The position numbers and the translations under genes are program-made. From a virus: 26,120 nucleotides of DNA. Location: positions 1 to 26,120 of IMG/VR virus record IMGVR_UViG_3300032770_000087; one strand, given 5' to 3'. The notes under the pieces are model-generated. The model ran no database searches. It worked only from the letters and a program-made list of their open reading frames with translations, and had not been told where the DNA came from. Of the stretch, positions 3,170 to 18,394 are shown piece after piece. Position 1 is the stretch's first letter, and each line of letters starts with the position of its first letter.

Positions 3170-3242
3170 AAAATATTTTAGTATGTGCAGAAATTTGGAG
3201 GTTCCGTTTAATATTTGGTTGTCTTCAAAAAAGGAGAACCAT

Positions 3243-3917
3243 ATGAAGAAATATTTATATACATTGCTTTTAAGTTCGGCTGCCTTTGCCTCCGAAGAAC
3301 CACAAGAAGAATTAAAGCTTCCTGAATCGATTATTTCTCATCACGAAATAACACCTAACTATAGGTGGCTTAAGCACAAAGAAAACAACTTCACCTATTC
3401 CAAAATTATTGGTGGATTAGAATATAACTATGTAAGATCTAGCGGTGTTAATTTCAATTCATTTATTGGATATTCAATTTACAAAGACAAAACCTATTTC
3501 ATTGCTGATTGGGGAGTAAAATATCTTATAAACGCAACAGAAAACCTTGACTATTATCCAGTTCTGGGAATTTCAAATACCTCTCACTTTTCTACAGATG
3601 CAAACGATCAGACATTCCAAATTTACCGTTCGGCTTTTAACGGGGGCATTGGAGCTATTTACAATCTAAAAGATCTTGTTGTTATGGACGTCAATGTTAC
3701 TTATTTTAAAGACCTTTCAACTAGCTGCATCCTTCATAAAGGAGACGAATTTTGGGGAAAGAATTATTATTCTCCATCAGGAGCAAAGCTGAACTTGAAT
3801 TTCCGTTTCCCTACATTTTTGAGCAAGCCTATTGAGATTGGTGGGTTTTATGCTCAAACAATTAAAGATTGTTATAAAGAATTTGGCTTTAAAACAGCCG
3901 TAGCATTTACTTTCTGA
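3243..3917 (+). CDS. Predicted outer-membrane beta-barrel protein (moron)
   Basis: A 224-residue protein starting at ATG 3243 with an AAGGAG site; an upstream in-frame ATG at 3141 has none and would bury the signal peptide. The N-terminus MKKYLYTLLLSSAAFA is a classical Sec signal peptide with cleavage after AFA. The mature part alternates polar and aromatic/hydrophobic residues in short strands rich in Tyr and Phe (for example 'LEYNYVRSSG', 'FNSFIGYSIY', 'FNGGIGAIYNL', 'KLNLNFRF') and ends 'KTAVAFTF', a terminal Phe as used by the BAM machinery. I infer an outer-membrane beta-barrel of roughly 8-10 strands. It is on the opposite strand to the head genes around it, with its own terminator after the next gene, typical of a lysogenic-conversion moron. 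Specific function unknown. Confidence 0.7.
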   Translation: MKKYLYTLLLSSAAFASEEPQEELKLPESIISHHEITPNYRWLKHKENNFTYSKIIGGLEYNYVRSSGVNFNSFIGYSIYKDKTYFIADWGVKYLINATENLDYYPVLGISNTSHFSTDANDQTFQIYRSAFNGGIGAIYNLKDLVVMDVNVTYFKDLSTSCILHKGDEFWGKNYYSPSGAKLNLNFRFPTFLSKPIEIGGFYAQTIKDCYKEFGFKTAVAFTF

Positions 3918-3924
3918 GGTAGAA

Positions 3925-4275
3925 ATGAAAAAGGTGTTAATTGGACTTTTAGCAATAAGTTCTATTTTTGCAGAGAATTCAAGTATCGAGCGGCCAAATT
4001 TAAATGGGAAAATTGATCAAACCGCCGAATATTTGGAAAGAATAGAATATACTGTTGAAGGAATTTTAACTAGCTTAAATGACTATGTTTCGATCCCTCT
4101 TGAACAAAGACAGTCGAACTACTTTTTAAGCGAAATGCATCAACAATTAGCACATTTGATTAATACTTTAGAAAGAACAAACAGCCTACTAGATCATTTA
4201 ATTTGGTTACAGGATCATAAATTAGATGCTAGTTTGCCCAAAAAAAACCTTAACGGTAGGGGTTCTGGGGGCTAA
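3925..4275 (+). CDS. Small secreted helical protein
   Basis: A 116-residue protein starting seven bases after the barrel gene, with a GAGG site before ATG 3925. Residues 1-16 (MKKVLIGLLAISSIFA) form a Sec signal peptide; the mature chain is amphipathic helix (residues 28-100, 'TAEYLERIEYTVEGILTSL', 'QQLAHLINTLERTNSLLDHL') with a short polar tail ending NLNGRGSGG. It has no cysteine lipobox. Tight spacing implies co-transcription with the barrel protein, so the two may act together in the envelope. No family is recognised. Confidence 0.7.
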   Translation: MKKVLIGLLAISSIFAENSSIERPNLNGKIDQTAEYLERIEYTVEGILTSLNDYVSIPLEQRQSNYFLSEMHQQLAHLINTLERTNSLLDHLIWLQDHKLDASLPKKNLNGRGSGG

Positions 4276-5485: not shown

Positions 5486-5617
5486 TCAATGATAAAGGAA
5501 AGGCCCAGTTAAGGGCTTTTTGATGTTCGCTTTCGGTTTAGCAACCTTTACACCCTTATTGGCCAAGATTGCCTTAGCAATTTTATAAGCCTTACCGCTC
5601 TGACGTAGCATTACCAT
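5486..5617 (-). CDS. 43-residue basic phage protein
   Basis: ATG 5617 with AAAGGT six bases upstream opens a 43-residue frame (MVMLRQSGKAYKIAKAILAN, then KGVKVAKPKANIKKPLTG). It overlaps the end of the upstream gene by 26 bases in another frame. The frame stays open further upstream, but that part is only the shadow of the neighbour's coding frame. The pattern 'GKAYKIAKAILANKGVKV' looks like a short helix plus basic tail. No family recognised. Confidence 0.55.
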   Translation of the reverse strand: MVMLRQSGKAYKIAKAILANKGVKVAKPKANIKKPLTGPFLYH

Positions 5618-12872: not shown

Positions 12873-13133
12873 TTAGATGGTAGAAGATTTTTTGTCATCT
12901 ATTTTTAAAGCAATTATTCGATTCCACGGCTCTTTATGAGCGAAACTCTCACCGTAAAAACCATCGATATCTGCTAGAATGGTTTGTTGTGTGGGAACGG
13001 ATAATTGATCCCAATTAGATTCGATAAACCTAGCAACTAGATCGGGCATGTAAGAATTTCTAGGTAGGCAATAACGAAGGGAGCAAATGATAAGGCACTC
13101 AAGGTCTTTGTTAAGCTTGATCTGAGTCATCAA
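12873..13133 (-). CDS. Phage hypothetical protein, 86 residues
   Basis: Starts MMTQIKLNKDLECLIICSLR within the last codons of the small terminase gene (23-base overlap). Helical, with 'YMPDLVARFIESNWDQLSVP' near residues 28-47 and 'QQTILADIDGFYG'. Ends KIDDKKSSTI. Its placement just after terS suggests an ancillary packaging or host-interaction role; nothing in the sequence proves it. Confidence 0.65.
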   Translation of the reverse strand: MMTQIKLNKDLECLIICSLRYCLPRNSYMPDLVARFIESNWDQLSVPTQQTILADIDGFYGESFAHKEPWNRIIALKIDDKKSSTI

Positions 13134-13536
13134 GCTTATCCAATTTATCTAGGAATTTCTCAACGAGGGTAGCTTTAGAATCTTTGTGAGATTGATCCTC
13201 TTTGTCCCAGCCGAATTTGTTACGCATGACCATTTGCAAGGAAGCTGTGTTAGCGTCTTTATTTATGCCTTTTGCACTATCTTCAGCTACTTGTTCCCAA
13301 ATGTTATAACCTGCTGATTTTGCGCGTTCTATTTTTAAGGAGTTGAAAACTTGCGGTTCGTTTTTAATATATGTTTCCATGGTTTGCCAAGTAATCGTTA
13401 TGTCTTCATGATCAAACCACCAAGACTTTTTGGATTTCCCTTTAGCTATATGGGCTAGATAAGAATCAAAAGCTTCTTTCTTTAATTCATCAGTTGTGAG
13501 TTTTTTTGCGTAAGTGTTCTCTTTATGCGCTACCAT
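13111..13536 (-). CDS. terS: Probable terminase small subunit
   Basis: A 141-residue, mostly helical protein. The N-terminal half has 'TTDELKKEAFDSYLAHIAKG', then a helix-turn-helix-like 'ITWQTMETYIKN' (about residues 48-59) that could bind the packaging site, then 'AGYNIWEQVAEDSAKG' and 'TASLQMVMRNKFGWD'. The end is a Lys/Asp-rich helix ending 'DKLDKLDDSDQA'. 'W...M.TY', 'WE..A...A.G', '(L)Q..MRN.FGW' is a pattern seen in phage TerS proteins. First gene of the block that ends with terL. The small size and position fit; the sequence family is weakly conserved, so this is probable rather than certain. Confidence 0.7.
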   Translation of the reverse strand: MVAHKENTYAKKLTTDELKKEAFDSYLAHIAKGKSKKSWWFDHEDITITWQTMETYIKNEPQVFNSLKIERAKSAGYNIWEQVAEDSAKGINKDANTASLQMVMRNKFGWDKEDQSHKDSKATLVEKFLDKLDKLDDSDQA

Positions 13537-13611
13537 AGCAAGTATTTTAGTCCTTTATTCTGAATCATTACCACTAAAATAATTTTTATGTCTAGCTTTT
13601 ACTGCTGATCG

Positions 13612-13620
13612 TGCTATAAT
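13612..13620 (+). promoter_or_regulatory. Extended -10 promoter for a candidate small RNA
   Basis: TGCTATAAT (13612-13620) is a perfect extended -10 (TGnTATAAT), with no good -35. Transcription would start near 13627. The only product in the next 80 bases is a compact hairpin RNA ending in a strong terminator. Confidence 0.6.
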
Positions 13621-13626
13621 GACTTC

Positions 13627-13703
13627 AGCGGCAACATATCCGCTATCCGACATTAAAGTGCCCTTGATTGGGCGAGTATTTTCCCCGGGAACGGGGTTTT
13701 TTT
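13627..13703 (+). ncRNA. Candidate three-hairpin small RNA
   Basis: Between an extended -10 promoter and a strong terminator lies a 77-base stretch that folds into three hairpins: AGCGG/CCGCT (13627-13644), TGCCC/GGGCG (13659-13674) and CCCCG-GGAA-CGGGG (13683-13696), the last followed by U7. Single-stranded linkers of about 14 and 8 bases could hold a target-pairing sequence. There is no convincing open reading frame. It is transcribed away from terS and toward the small-gene block, and the U7 run should stop it before 13804. It does not match an RNA family that I can name; function is unknown. Confidence 0.6.
13683..13703 (+). terminator. Strong rho-independent terminator
   Basis: CCCCG-GGAA-CGGGG stem-loop (13683-13696) followed by seven T (13697-13703). 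A second CCCGGG lies at 13707-13712 and can pair with the CCCGGG at 13684-13689, giving an alternative helix that would break the terminator. Confidence 0.85.
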
Positions 13704-13753
13704 ATGCCCGGGAATAAATTAATTTTTAGTCTTTTTTTATTTTTCTTGTGGAC

Positions 13754-13784
13754 TATAATGTAGCTCATAACTGTGAAACACAGT
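13754..13784 (+). promoter_or_regulatory. -10 element plus palindromic operator for the 13804 gene block
   Basis: TATAAT (13754-13759) lies 45 bases before the next gene, with only a T-rich stretch in place of a -35. Ten bases on, ACTGTG-AAA-CACAGT (13770-13784) is a perfect 15-base palindrome that would lie just inside the transcript. It could be a repressor site or a 5' leader hairpin. GGAG precedes the start codon at 13804. Confidence 0.5.
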
Positions 13785-13803: not shown

Positions 13804-13959
13804 ATGAAATATAGGCGCGATGATTTTTATAATGATGTATTAGATTTGGCGAATGACAAATACGGTCTTGATCATATAAATTTTATCAAAGAACTTTCTA
13901 CTTTAATTGCTTTAATTTGTGATGCTAATTTAATTAAAGAAAAGATAGAAACAAAATGA
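13804..13959 (+). CDS. Small hypothetical protein, 51 residues
   Basis: ATG 13804 behind TGGAGAATC opens a 51-residue frame (MKYRRDDFYNDVLDLANDKY, then helical to KEKIETK). A helical, slightly acidic protein of no recognised family. It overlaps the next gene by four bases (ATGA), starting the plus-strand small-gene run. Confidence 0.6.
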   Translation: MKYRRDDFYNDVLDLANDKYGLDHINFIKELSTLIALICDANLIKEKIETK

Positions 13960-14159
13960 GTTGGATTAAAGTAACCGATAAAAAGCCCGAACATGATCAA
14001 TGGTGCTGGATATTTATTCCACCGAAGCTCGTGATATATGGTTGTTACGATCAAGATTGTGGCGATTGGTTTTATGGATCGATCGAGAATTATTGGCCAG
14101 AAGAAGAGGTAACTCATTGGATGCCTTATTTTACGCCGGAGCCGCCACATGACGTTTAA
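13956..14159 (+). CDS. DUF551-like small phage protein
   Basis: A 67-residue protein with the DUF551 layout: start 'MSWIKVTDKKPEHDQWCWI', central strand 'YGCYDQDCGDWFYG', and end 'VTHWMPYFTPEPP'. DUF551 proteins (W.....P....V.....V.HW.PLP..P) are common in phages and prophages and have no settled function. Overlaps neighbours by four and eleven bases. Confidence 0.8.
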   Translation: MSWIKVTDKKPEHDQWCWIFIPPKLVIYGCYDQDCGDWFYGSIENYWPEEEVTHWMPYFTPEPPHDV

Positions 14160-14340
14160 GTTCAAGTGCAAACGAGTTTACGGTCGAACACTTTTTTATC
14201 CAATAGATGAAGCTGGCAAGAGTTTGCTTAAGATTTTTAGGCGAACGTGTATAGATGGCCAAAAGCACATGGGTTTGCTTAAGTCTATTTTGCCTATTGA
14301 AATAGAGTATGAATCAATAAATTGGGATGAAAGTAAATGA
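14149..14340 (+). CDS. Small basic hypothetical protein, 63 residues
   Basis: Starts MTFKFKCKRVYGRTLFYPID within the end of the DUF551 gene, with only GGAGCC upstream. Small beta-rich and basic, containing 'LLKIFRRTCIDGQKHMGLLK'. It is coupled to the next gene by a four-base ATGA overlap. No motif recognised. Confidence 0.6.
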   Translation: MTFKFKCKRVYGRTLFYPIDEAGKSLLKIFRRTCIDGQKHMGLLKSILPIEIEYESINWDESK

Positions 14341-14582
14341 GCGAGCTTAATCAAGAAAAGATTCTAGAATGTTATGATCATTTGCATCAGCTCGTTTTAA
14401 AGTTTATTCATGAGGGTTTTCCGGAAGAAGCTCATGTTGCTGTAACTCATATTATGTCGATGGTTATCGTCGCTGAAGCGGCTTTGTTTAAAGAAAATGT
14501 AGAACAGGTTATGGAAAAGTACTTCGATAAAATTGGAGATATCAGTAATCGCGTGGTCACAAAAGGAGATAAAGTTGAATAA
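14337..14582 (+). CDS. Helical hypothetical protein, 81 residues
   Basis: Starts MSELNQEKILECYDHLHQLV with GATGAAAG upstream. Almost all helix ('FPEEAHVAVTHIMSMVIVAE', then 'AALFKENVEQVMEKYFDKIG'). Ends 'VVTKGDKVE', overlapping the next gene's TTG start by eight bases. Possibly a small dimeric helical bundle; no family recognised. Confidence 0.65.
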   Translation: MSELNQEKILECYDHLHQLVLKFIHEGFPEEAHVAVTHIMSMVIVAEAALFKENVEQVMEKYFDKIGDISNRVVTKGDKVE

Positions 14583-14715
14583 AGGTTTATTCAAATCGTT
14601 TTTTTTTAAGATTCTTTTAGCCTGTATTTTAGGTGTTCTGGCCTTTTATACGTTTGCTTTAATGTACGAGCATCTGTTTGGAAAAGCGCCAGTTTGTAAA
14701 ACTTTTCAAGCGTGA
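14575..14715 (+). CDS. Small single-pass membrane protein (TTG start)
   Basis: TTG 14575 is seven bases after AAAAGGAG and starts a 46-residue frame, first residues LNKGLFKSFFFK. Residues 13-32 (ILLACILGVLAFYTFALMYE) form one membrane helix, followed by a short polar tail ending CKTFQA. An upstream in-frame ATG is in the preceding gene and has no ribosome binding site. It might be a small holin-like or host-envelope protein, but with one helix and no lysis genes nearby I leave it unassigned. Its end overlaps a convergent gene by ten bases. Confidence 0.6.
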   Translation: MNKGLFKSFFFKILLACILGVLAFYTFALMYEHLFGKAPVCKTFQA

Positions 14716-15877: not shown

Positions 15878-16093
15878 TTAATTTCCAATTAAATTTTTTC
15901 CTATAAGGTCCTCAGCTTTTAATTTTTTGTTGGTCCCGTTTTCTATTCCTCTAGCCTTTAGAGGATGAATCGGTTCTCCTTTTAGGTATTTGTGCAAAGA
16001 GGAACGATGAATATGACAGTCTTTGCAGAACTGGACTTTGGTGATTCCGGAATTAACGAGATACTCTTCTATAAGTTGGGCTGATGTCTTCAT
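15878..16093 (-). CDS. Cro-like HTH repressor
   Basis: A 71-residue DNA-binding protein starting MKTSAQLIEEYLVNSGITKV. The helix-turn-helix is residues 17-40 ('ITKVQFCKDCHIHRSSLHKY'), followed by a short C-terminal stretch, so the size is that of a Cro or small repressor with no oligomerisation or cleavage domain. A longer in-frame start at 16276 is rejected because it would include the operator region. The leader has little ribosome binding site. It is divergent from the recombination genes and probably binds the TGTCTA palindromes 30-75 bases upstream of its start. Confidence 0.8.
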   Translation of the reverse strand: MKTSAQLIEEYLVNSGITKVQFCKDCHIHRSSLHKYLKGEPIHPLKARGIENGTNKKLKAEDLIGKNLIGN

Positions 16094-16122
16094 GAGAAAA
16101 GAATAAAAAAAGAGAGAATTTT

Positions 16123-16168
16123 TGTCTAGGTCGACTTTTTTTTCTTGTATAAAATGTCTAGGTAGACA
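16123..16168. promoter_or_regulatory. Tandem operator sites between repressor and recombination genes
   Basis: TGTCTA-GG-TAGACA (16155-16168) is a perfect inverted repeat. TGTCTAGGTCGACT (16123-16136) has the same left half and a diverged right half. Their centres are 32 bp apart, three helical turns, so dimers could cooperate on one face of the DNA. Half-site-like copies occur at 16303-16308 (AGTCTA) and about 16363-16368 (TAGACA). The likely ligand is the Cro-like protein at 15878-16093. Confidence 0.6.
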
Positions 16169-16190
16169 TATACTCGACTGTAATAAACAA

Positions 16191-16210
16191 CCCCTAGTTA
16201 GAGCTAGGGG
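16191..16210. promoter_or_regulatory. CCCCTAG/CTAGGGG hairpin in the divergent regulatory region
   Basis: CCCCTAG-TTAGAG-CTAGGGG is a perfect 7-bp stem. On the minus strand it is followed by TTGTTTATT (a weak U-tract), so it might terminate minus-strand transcripts entering from the recombination genes. On the plus strand it lies three bases before TATAAT (16213-16218). It could equally be a second operator class. Confidence 0.45.
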
Positions 16211-16293
16211 TCTATAATGGAAAACCACATGAAAAAAGAGTTGTTTCTTAAGAATAGCCTCAAATCTATTTTCCAAAAAGAACTTTCGCGTGG

Positions 16294-16322
16294 TTGACCT
16301 TTAGTCTAGTCCAATGTAAACA
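16294..16322 (+). promoter_or_regulatory. Promoter for the recombination genes
   Basis: TTGACC (16294-16299), 17-base spacer and TAAACA (16317-16322) give a good -35 and a modest -10. The start of transcription would be about 16330, leaving a short leader with ACAGGAGAT before ATG 16346. An AGTCTA half-site (16303-16308) lies in the spacer, so the Cro-like protein could repress it. Confidence 0.5.
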
Positions 16323-16345
16323 AAATATTTTACAGGAGATTAGTA

Positions 16346-17931: not shown

Positions 17932-17963
17932 CCGCTAGCCCTAAAAAAGTTAGCGGTTTTTTT
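17932..17963 (+). terminator. Rho-independent terminator after the recombination operon
   Basis: CCGCTAGC (17932-17939) pairs with GTTAGCGG (17949-17956), 8 bp with one G-T, nine-base A-rich loop, then seven T. Lies 60 bases after the YqaJ stop. Confidence 0.9.
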
Positions 17964-18394
17964 ATGCCCAAAAAAGAAGGGGAGTCATCGGACTCCCCGG
18001 TGTTTAGTCAAAAGGCGCTATGGAGAACAGCGCCAGGAGAAAATTTGGTTAAAAAAGGCACCTCTGAATTTATAACTGGAGTCAAAAAATTCAGAACTTG
18101 GGTCGTCGCAGCTATAAAAGCGCTTTCCAAGCTTAGACCATGGTGCCAACAGCCTAGATGAGGAGATCATCAACATCTAACTTGATGCTATATGAAAAAG
18201 AATTTTGTGGAAATTAAATTTTGAGGTGAGATAGTCTCGCGATTACTACAAAAAACCGAGGGGCCCTGGAAGGCCCCCTAACTCGGAAAATAATAAGCTG
18301 TCCGAGATCATAACAGATCGACCAATTAAATCAACAAAAAAGTCGAGTTAGGGGAGTTTTTCAGGGTTCCAAGGTATAAACCGAAGGAATTTTC
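17964..18394. other. Gene-free hairpin-rich region before the replication gene
   Basis: No convincing gene lies here. A 65-codon frame from ATG 17964 exists but begins at the last base of the terminator and has no ribosome binding site. The region holds repeated stem-loops: GGGGAGTC/GACTCCCC (17979-17998, ATCG loop), GGCGCT/AGCGCC (18014-18034), CTGAATTT/AAATTCAG (18064-18094), GATGA/TCATC (about 18157-18171), and the competing helix group at 18256-18361. It could be a structured leader RNA, part of the origin of replication, or both. Confidence 0.5.
18256..18361 (+). promoter_or_regulatory. Switch-like leader with mutually exclusive helices
   Basis: CTCGG at 18282-18286 can pair in three ways: with CCGAG at 18256-18260 (closing a nested GGGCC/GGCCC hairpin), with CCGAG at 18302-18306 (as CTCGGA/TCCGAG), or as part of CCCCTAACTCG (18275-18285) with CGAGTTAGGGG (18344-18354), an 11-bp helix followed by AGTTTTTC. 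The third structure resembles a terminator and the first an antiterminator. TCGAC (18318-18322) and GTCGA (18342-18346) are a further alternative. The next gene, the replication initiator, starts 34 bases later. Confidence 0.55.

Follow-up and report, generated by a model that had tools for sequence, protein, structure and literature searches.

The window analysed here is the 26,120-base virus record of an uncultured tailed phage. Portal, major head protein and PBSX-type terminase large subunit genes run leftward, and genes for an Erf-like annealing protein, a RecE-like exonuclease and a replication initiator run rightward. On the strand opposite to the surrounding late operon, two secreted-looking proteins are encoded at 3231-4275, one of them a weak match to outer-membrane beta-barrels; these are possibly lysogenic-conversion or host-derived genes. 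Three genome matches were obtained for the host, all of them metagenome bins of unrelated phyla and not reliable as host evidence.

The locus under study lies between a putative terS gene and a block of small rightward genes (Table 1), where the sequence-only reading had placed a small RNA. The putative terS had no Pfam or PHROG match in profile searches. The intervening stretch holds a predicted promoter (P1), two short hairpins, an intrinsic terminator and a second promoter-like sequence (P2).

Table 1 Features of the terS boundary and of related elements in the window.
Feature	Position	Strand	Remarks
Putative terS	13111-13536	leftward	assigned by position alone
Conserved boundary element, TAAAATAATTTTTATGTCTAG	13575-13595	+	upstream of P1; ~14 related phage loci, same boundary
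P1 extended -10, TGC-TATAAT	13612-13620	+	19 nt after CTAG; direct reading
Predicted non-coding RNA, ~77 nt	13627-13703	+	start inferred ~7 nt after the -10
Hairpin 1, AGCGG-CAACATAT-CCGCT	13627-13644	+	arms 13627-13631/13640-13644; 5 pairs
Hairpin 2, TGCCC-TTGATT-GGGCG	13659-13674	+	arms 13659-13663/13670-13674; 5 pairs, outer pair U-G
Intrinsic terminator, CCCCG-GGAA-CGGGG then T7	13683-13703	+	stem-loop 13683-13696; T7 13697-13703
P2, degenerate element copy (TAAATTAATTTTTAGTCT) and TATAAT	13715-13759	+	GTCT-N21-TATAAT; P1 spacing kept
Small-gene block: 51 aa, DUF551 67 aa, 63 aa, 81 aa and following small ORF	13804-14715	+	taken as served by P2
Third element copy (AATTTTTGTCTAG), then TATAAA	16117-16147	+	control region of small HTH protein

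Related phages were collected via TerL and the terS-like protein. At the same boundary, the relatives carry the element AAAAKAATTTTTATGTCTAG (loci including L002, L003, L026, L038, L051, L053 and L056, and others). This ~20-bp element sits at the junction of leftward and rightward genes, and it varies hardly at all between phages in which the identity of the terS-like proteins is only 38-45%. Both a rightward and a leftward promoter may make use of it: a leftward promoter using TAGACA as its -35 is plausible, with a -10 that is not clear.

The promoter sequence that had been noted upstream of the RNA (TGCTATAAT) was confirmed by direct reading. Its -10 keeps a constant spacing to a 15-20 bp element (AATTTTTATGTCTAG) that is kept at the same boundary in relatives. 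Across 16 element contexts, a -10-like hexamer located 20-21 nt after TCTA scored above the cut in 12, no other distance giving as many, and in the alignment the P1 TATAAT was in register with the TATAATs of L002, L003, L038 and L056. As the element and its spacing to the -10 are both conserved in divergent relatives, the TATAAT of P1 appears to mark a genuine promoter and not to be a chance occurrence. The -35 is poor (CTAGCT, 17 nt before the -10), and P1 was not listed by a simple promoter scan.

A terminator scan over 9.6 kb returned 12 sites, with 6.6 expected. The combination of an extended -10 with a strong terminator 40-150 nt downstream occurred once in the window and in none of 300 dinucleotide shuffles, a pairing criterion that, like several other shuffle controls, was chosen after the feature had been seen. 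CCCC-stem terminators with T-runs are found at other gene boundaries of the relatives, and the RNA terminator shares GGTTTTTTTATGCCC with the window terminator at 17955, after the exonuclease gene. It is thus of a type used by this phage group. The GGTTTTTTTATGCCC repeat was also considered as a second RNA and rejected; in L010, L021 and L022 it is an apparent terminator between recombination (Erf- or Bet-like) and replication genes. Several hairpins lie between the exonuclease and replication initiator genes (17940-18280), and at the apparent counterpart of this place the same three relatives carry GGGCTTTTTTATGCCC.

All three stem-loops and the seven T of the sequence-only reading are present, as verified by direct reading and folding. 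The predicted RNA folds at -24.7 kcal/mol, with all three stems at a pairing probability of at least 0.98, and these stems dominate the ensemble of a 78-nt transcript. A single-stranded linker of 14 nt (AUCCGACAUUAAAG) is part of the predicted fold. Local G+C is ~50% at the RNA stretch, compared with ~30% around it. Against shuffled sequences, folding gave a z of -1.75 (10 of 200 shuffles) in one test and -1.7 (5%) in a second. The upstream hairpins 1 and 2 are marginally better than chance and not statistically compelling alone. Since the fold is only slightly better than that of shuffles, the case rests on promoter and terminator and not on the two small hairpins. The earlier proposal of an RNA with its own promoter and terminator is supported at the level of sequence, more by the comparative promoter evidence than by the hairpins. 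Elsewhere in the window, ACATCAAAAAGCCCTTAACTGGGCC at the end of a small gene (5502-5526, minus strand) resembles the linker and hairpin 2 (11 bits, E 0.9); this likeness is probably due to chance.

The relatives have the boundary promoter and lack the RNA. In L002, L003, L026 and L038 the first small gene begins ~20-50 bases after the promoter, and neither a terminator nor an RNA was found between promoter and small-gene block in these four. The block of L026 and L002 includes the DUF551-type gene and the 63-aa gene that are also present in the window. Close relatives without the RNA have TerL proteins 80-86% identical to that of the window. No homologue of the RNA was detected in ~40 related phage records, by blastn and a single-sequence covariance model, or in 377 kb of further pieces of ten of them, and blastn with the RNA region found no match in phages, plasmids or E. 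coli genomes. The Rfam covariance-model search returned nothing at gathering score and chance-level matches alone at E up to 10, in agreement with the earlier statement that the RNA matches no nameable family. Conservation of the stems in relatives, which the same reading had put forward as a check, was not seen, as the relatives lack the whole RNA. The unit is therefore lineage-specific, which does not make it unreal. Two pattern searches of viral contigs were also made. The exact hairpin 2 pattern had two matches in 2.9 million contigs, both inside unrelated sequence, and the two-hairpin pattern with free loops had ten, none of which was accompanied by a correctly placed promoter or terminator; all were taken as chance.

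Downstream of the RNA terminator, P2 (TAAATTAATTTTTA-GTCT, 21 bases, TATAAT) repeats the arrangement of P1. Shuffling the local sequence 5000 times gave a copy as good as P2 once. The two tandem promoters are ~140 bp apart and flank the RNA. As P2 is paralogous to P1 and has the same spacing, the gene block would not need P1, and the product of P1 would be the RNA. The P2 spacer is closer to the L002 spacer than the P1 spacer is. This points to P2 as the original promoter of the gene block and to P1, together with the RNA, as the later addition.

With the third copy the window holds three elements, a number reached in none of 400 shuffles. Just beyond this third copy lies a perfect palindrome, TGTCTAGGTAGACA, at 16155-16168. 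Together with the operator-like TGTCTAGGTCGACT it forms a stretch (16113-16168) upstream of a small HTH gene on the minus strand (15878-16093), and GTCTAG is common to these operator-like sequences and the P1 element. The P1 element and the HTH control region are a candidate phage regulon, and a common regulator is likely. In the window and in two relatives, L098 (~1588) and L100 (~7060), the leftward intergenic stretch that separates the recombination operon from the HTH gene (16189-16345 of the window, minus strand) closes with a CCCC-stem terminator. Remains of a short frame are present in these relatives (VNHENFAFEKELEELFF in L098, VNLEKVLLENKLEKLIL in L100), and the frame looks broken in the window.

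We propose, with a probability of about 0.45, that the locus is an orphan, lineage-specific transcription unit which arose by promoter duplication or RNA insertion and which encodes a structured RNA of ~77 nt, perhaps trans-acting. P1, as a copy of the conserved rightward promoter of the terS boundary, would start a transcript near 13627; the polymerase would stop at the intrinsic terminator near 13703 and release an RNA made up of two short hairpins, the linker and a terminator tail. Within this lineage, either the promoter would have been duplicated to give P1 and P2, or the RNA would have been inserted behind the promoter, and P2 would now take over the small-gene block, which in relatives stands directly under the promoter. 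Because P1 shares the operator-like element with the HTH control region, the RNA would probably be under the same phage control as the HTH protein. Its likeliest role would be that of a small RNA acting in trans, with base pairing via the linker or the loops. Among phage targets within the window, the longest exact complementarity to the RNA was 9 nt and no gene start scored convincingly; the best RNA-target duplex reached a z of -2.5 among 49 phage genes. Conservation and duplication of the promoter, the terminator and the absence of the unit from relatives can be read from the genomes themselves, and a base-pairing regulatory role of the predicted RNA is possible. A variant that we hold to be improbable sees a newly born small-RNA gene near its origin, in which a duplicated promoter copy gained a terminator and hairpins. 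The RNA would then share its element with the small HTH protein, and a single phage regulator would act on proteins and RNA alike.

The unit could also be an insulator or a relic, its terminator, after the promoter duplication, keeping P1 transcripts or antisense read-through across the ter region out of the small-gene block and its RNA being a functionless by-product. Relatives that manage without the RNA, hairpins 1 and 2 close to chance, the restriction of the RNA unit to one site in one lineage and the description of a terminator insulating a mobile element for Tn916 (PMC11658703) all speak for it. However, the stretch from the -10 to the terminator is compact and higher in G+C than its surroundings, both extra hairpins are nearly fully formed, and P1 has retained an intact extended -10. 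We regard this explanation as somewhat unlikely. Also unlikely is an attenuator or a regulated leader of the lambda PR'-tR' kind, in which P1 transcripts would end at 13703 and would be extended into the block only when a phage factor or a different fold let the polymerase through. Such a leader would suit a unit directly upstream of a co-oriented gene block, and the arms of hairpin 2 can indeed pair with the terminator arms instead, in a fold that is 3 kcal/mol less stable for the 78-nt RNA and about as stable as the terminator fold for a transcript extending to 13720. Yet this swapped fold takes both terminator arms and so would form only after the polymerase has passed, P2 right after the terminator would already serve the block, and a two-stem, put-like layout is absent. 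Attenuation was judged unlikely after folding without the terminator stem.

Two further readings carry very little weight. At the DNA level, the inverted repeats could matter as an operator, packaging or replication site and not as RNA, and the place adjoins the putative terS and a conserved element that resembles half of the palindrome near the HTH gene. We consider this very unlikely, since a packaging or replication site should be conserved, whereas the conserved part here is the element upstream of the hairpins and the hairpins themselves are unconserved. A short peptide gene is the least credible of all. It had been stated that no reading frame fits, which proved incorrect: a frame from ATG 13619 to TAA 13717 (MTSAATYPLSDIKVPLIGRVFSPGTGFFYARE; 32 open codons) is open across the whole RNA unit. 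However, about one in five random frames of such length would be open by a simple estimate, and the frame has no Shine-Dalgarno sequence, while its ATG falls within the -10, ahead of the expected transcript start. It is probably meaningless, and the peptide reading was rejected for want of a ribosome site and of counterparts in relatives.

Phage small RNAs are already a known kind, and the window probably adds a lineage-specific unit to them. What makes this proposed orphan transcription unit notable is chiefly that both the empty site and the promoter duplication can be seen. If transcribed, it would be a datable case of a phage gaining a small RNA gene, with an empty site in close relatives and a readable duplication, and the GTCTAG element of this group of uncultured phages would gain an RNA in its probable regulon.

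Transcription from lambda PR' to tR' yields the short, terminated 6S RNA, which is read through when Q acts. The window unit is similar in having a promoter, a short terminated RNA and co-oriented genes beyond; it differs in its second promoter after the terminator and in late genes that run in the other direction. The 6S RNA is listed among the lambda sRNAs (PMC12197685). The putRNA of HK022 (~70 nt) is likewise a structured RNA of similar size just past a phage promoter, but it consists of two long stem-loops with bulges and has no terminator of its own (PMC9378689), whereas the window RNA has two 5-pair hairpins 14 nt apart, followed by a terminator. Compared with that description, its fold does not have the features of a putRNA-type antiterminator. 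STnc280 (Rfam RF02071), an 83-nt RNA with a 5' hairpin and a terminator, can be aligned end to end with the window RNA, but it scores 15.8 bits where the gathering score is 80 (E 2.3), which is a chance-level match. Trans-acting small RNAs encoded by phages include VpdS of VP882 and PreS of lambda (review PMC12197685). The window RNA differs from these in being predicted only and in having no sequence relation to any RNA in Rfam; it resembles them in being short, non-coding and encoded by a tailed phage, and in apparently having a promoter and a terminator of its own, which are recognised here from sequence alone.
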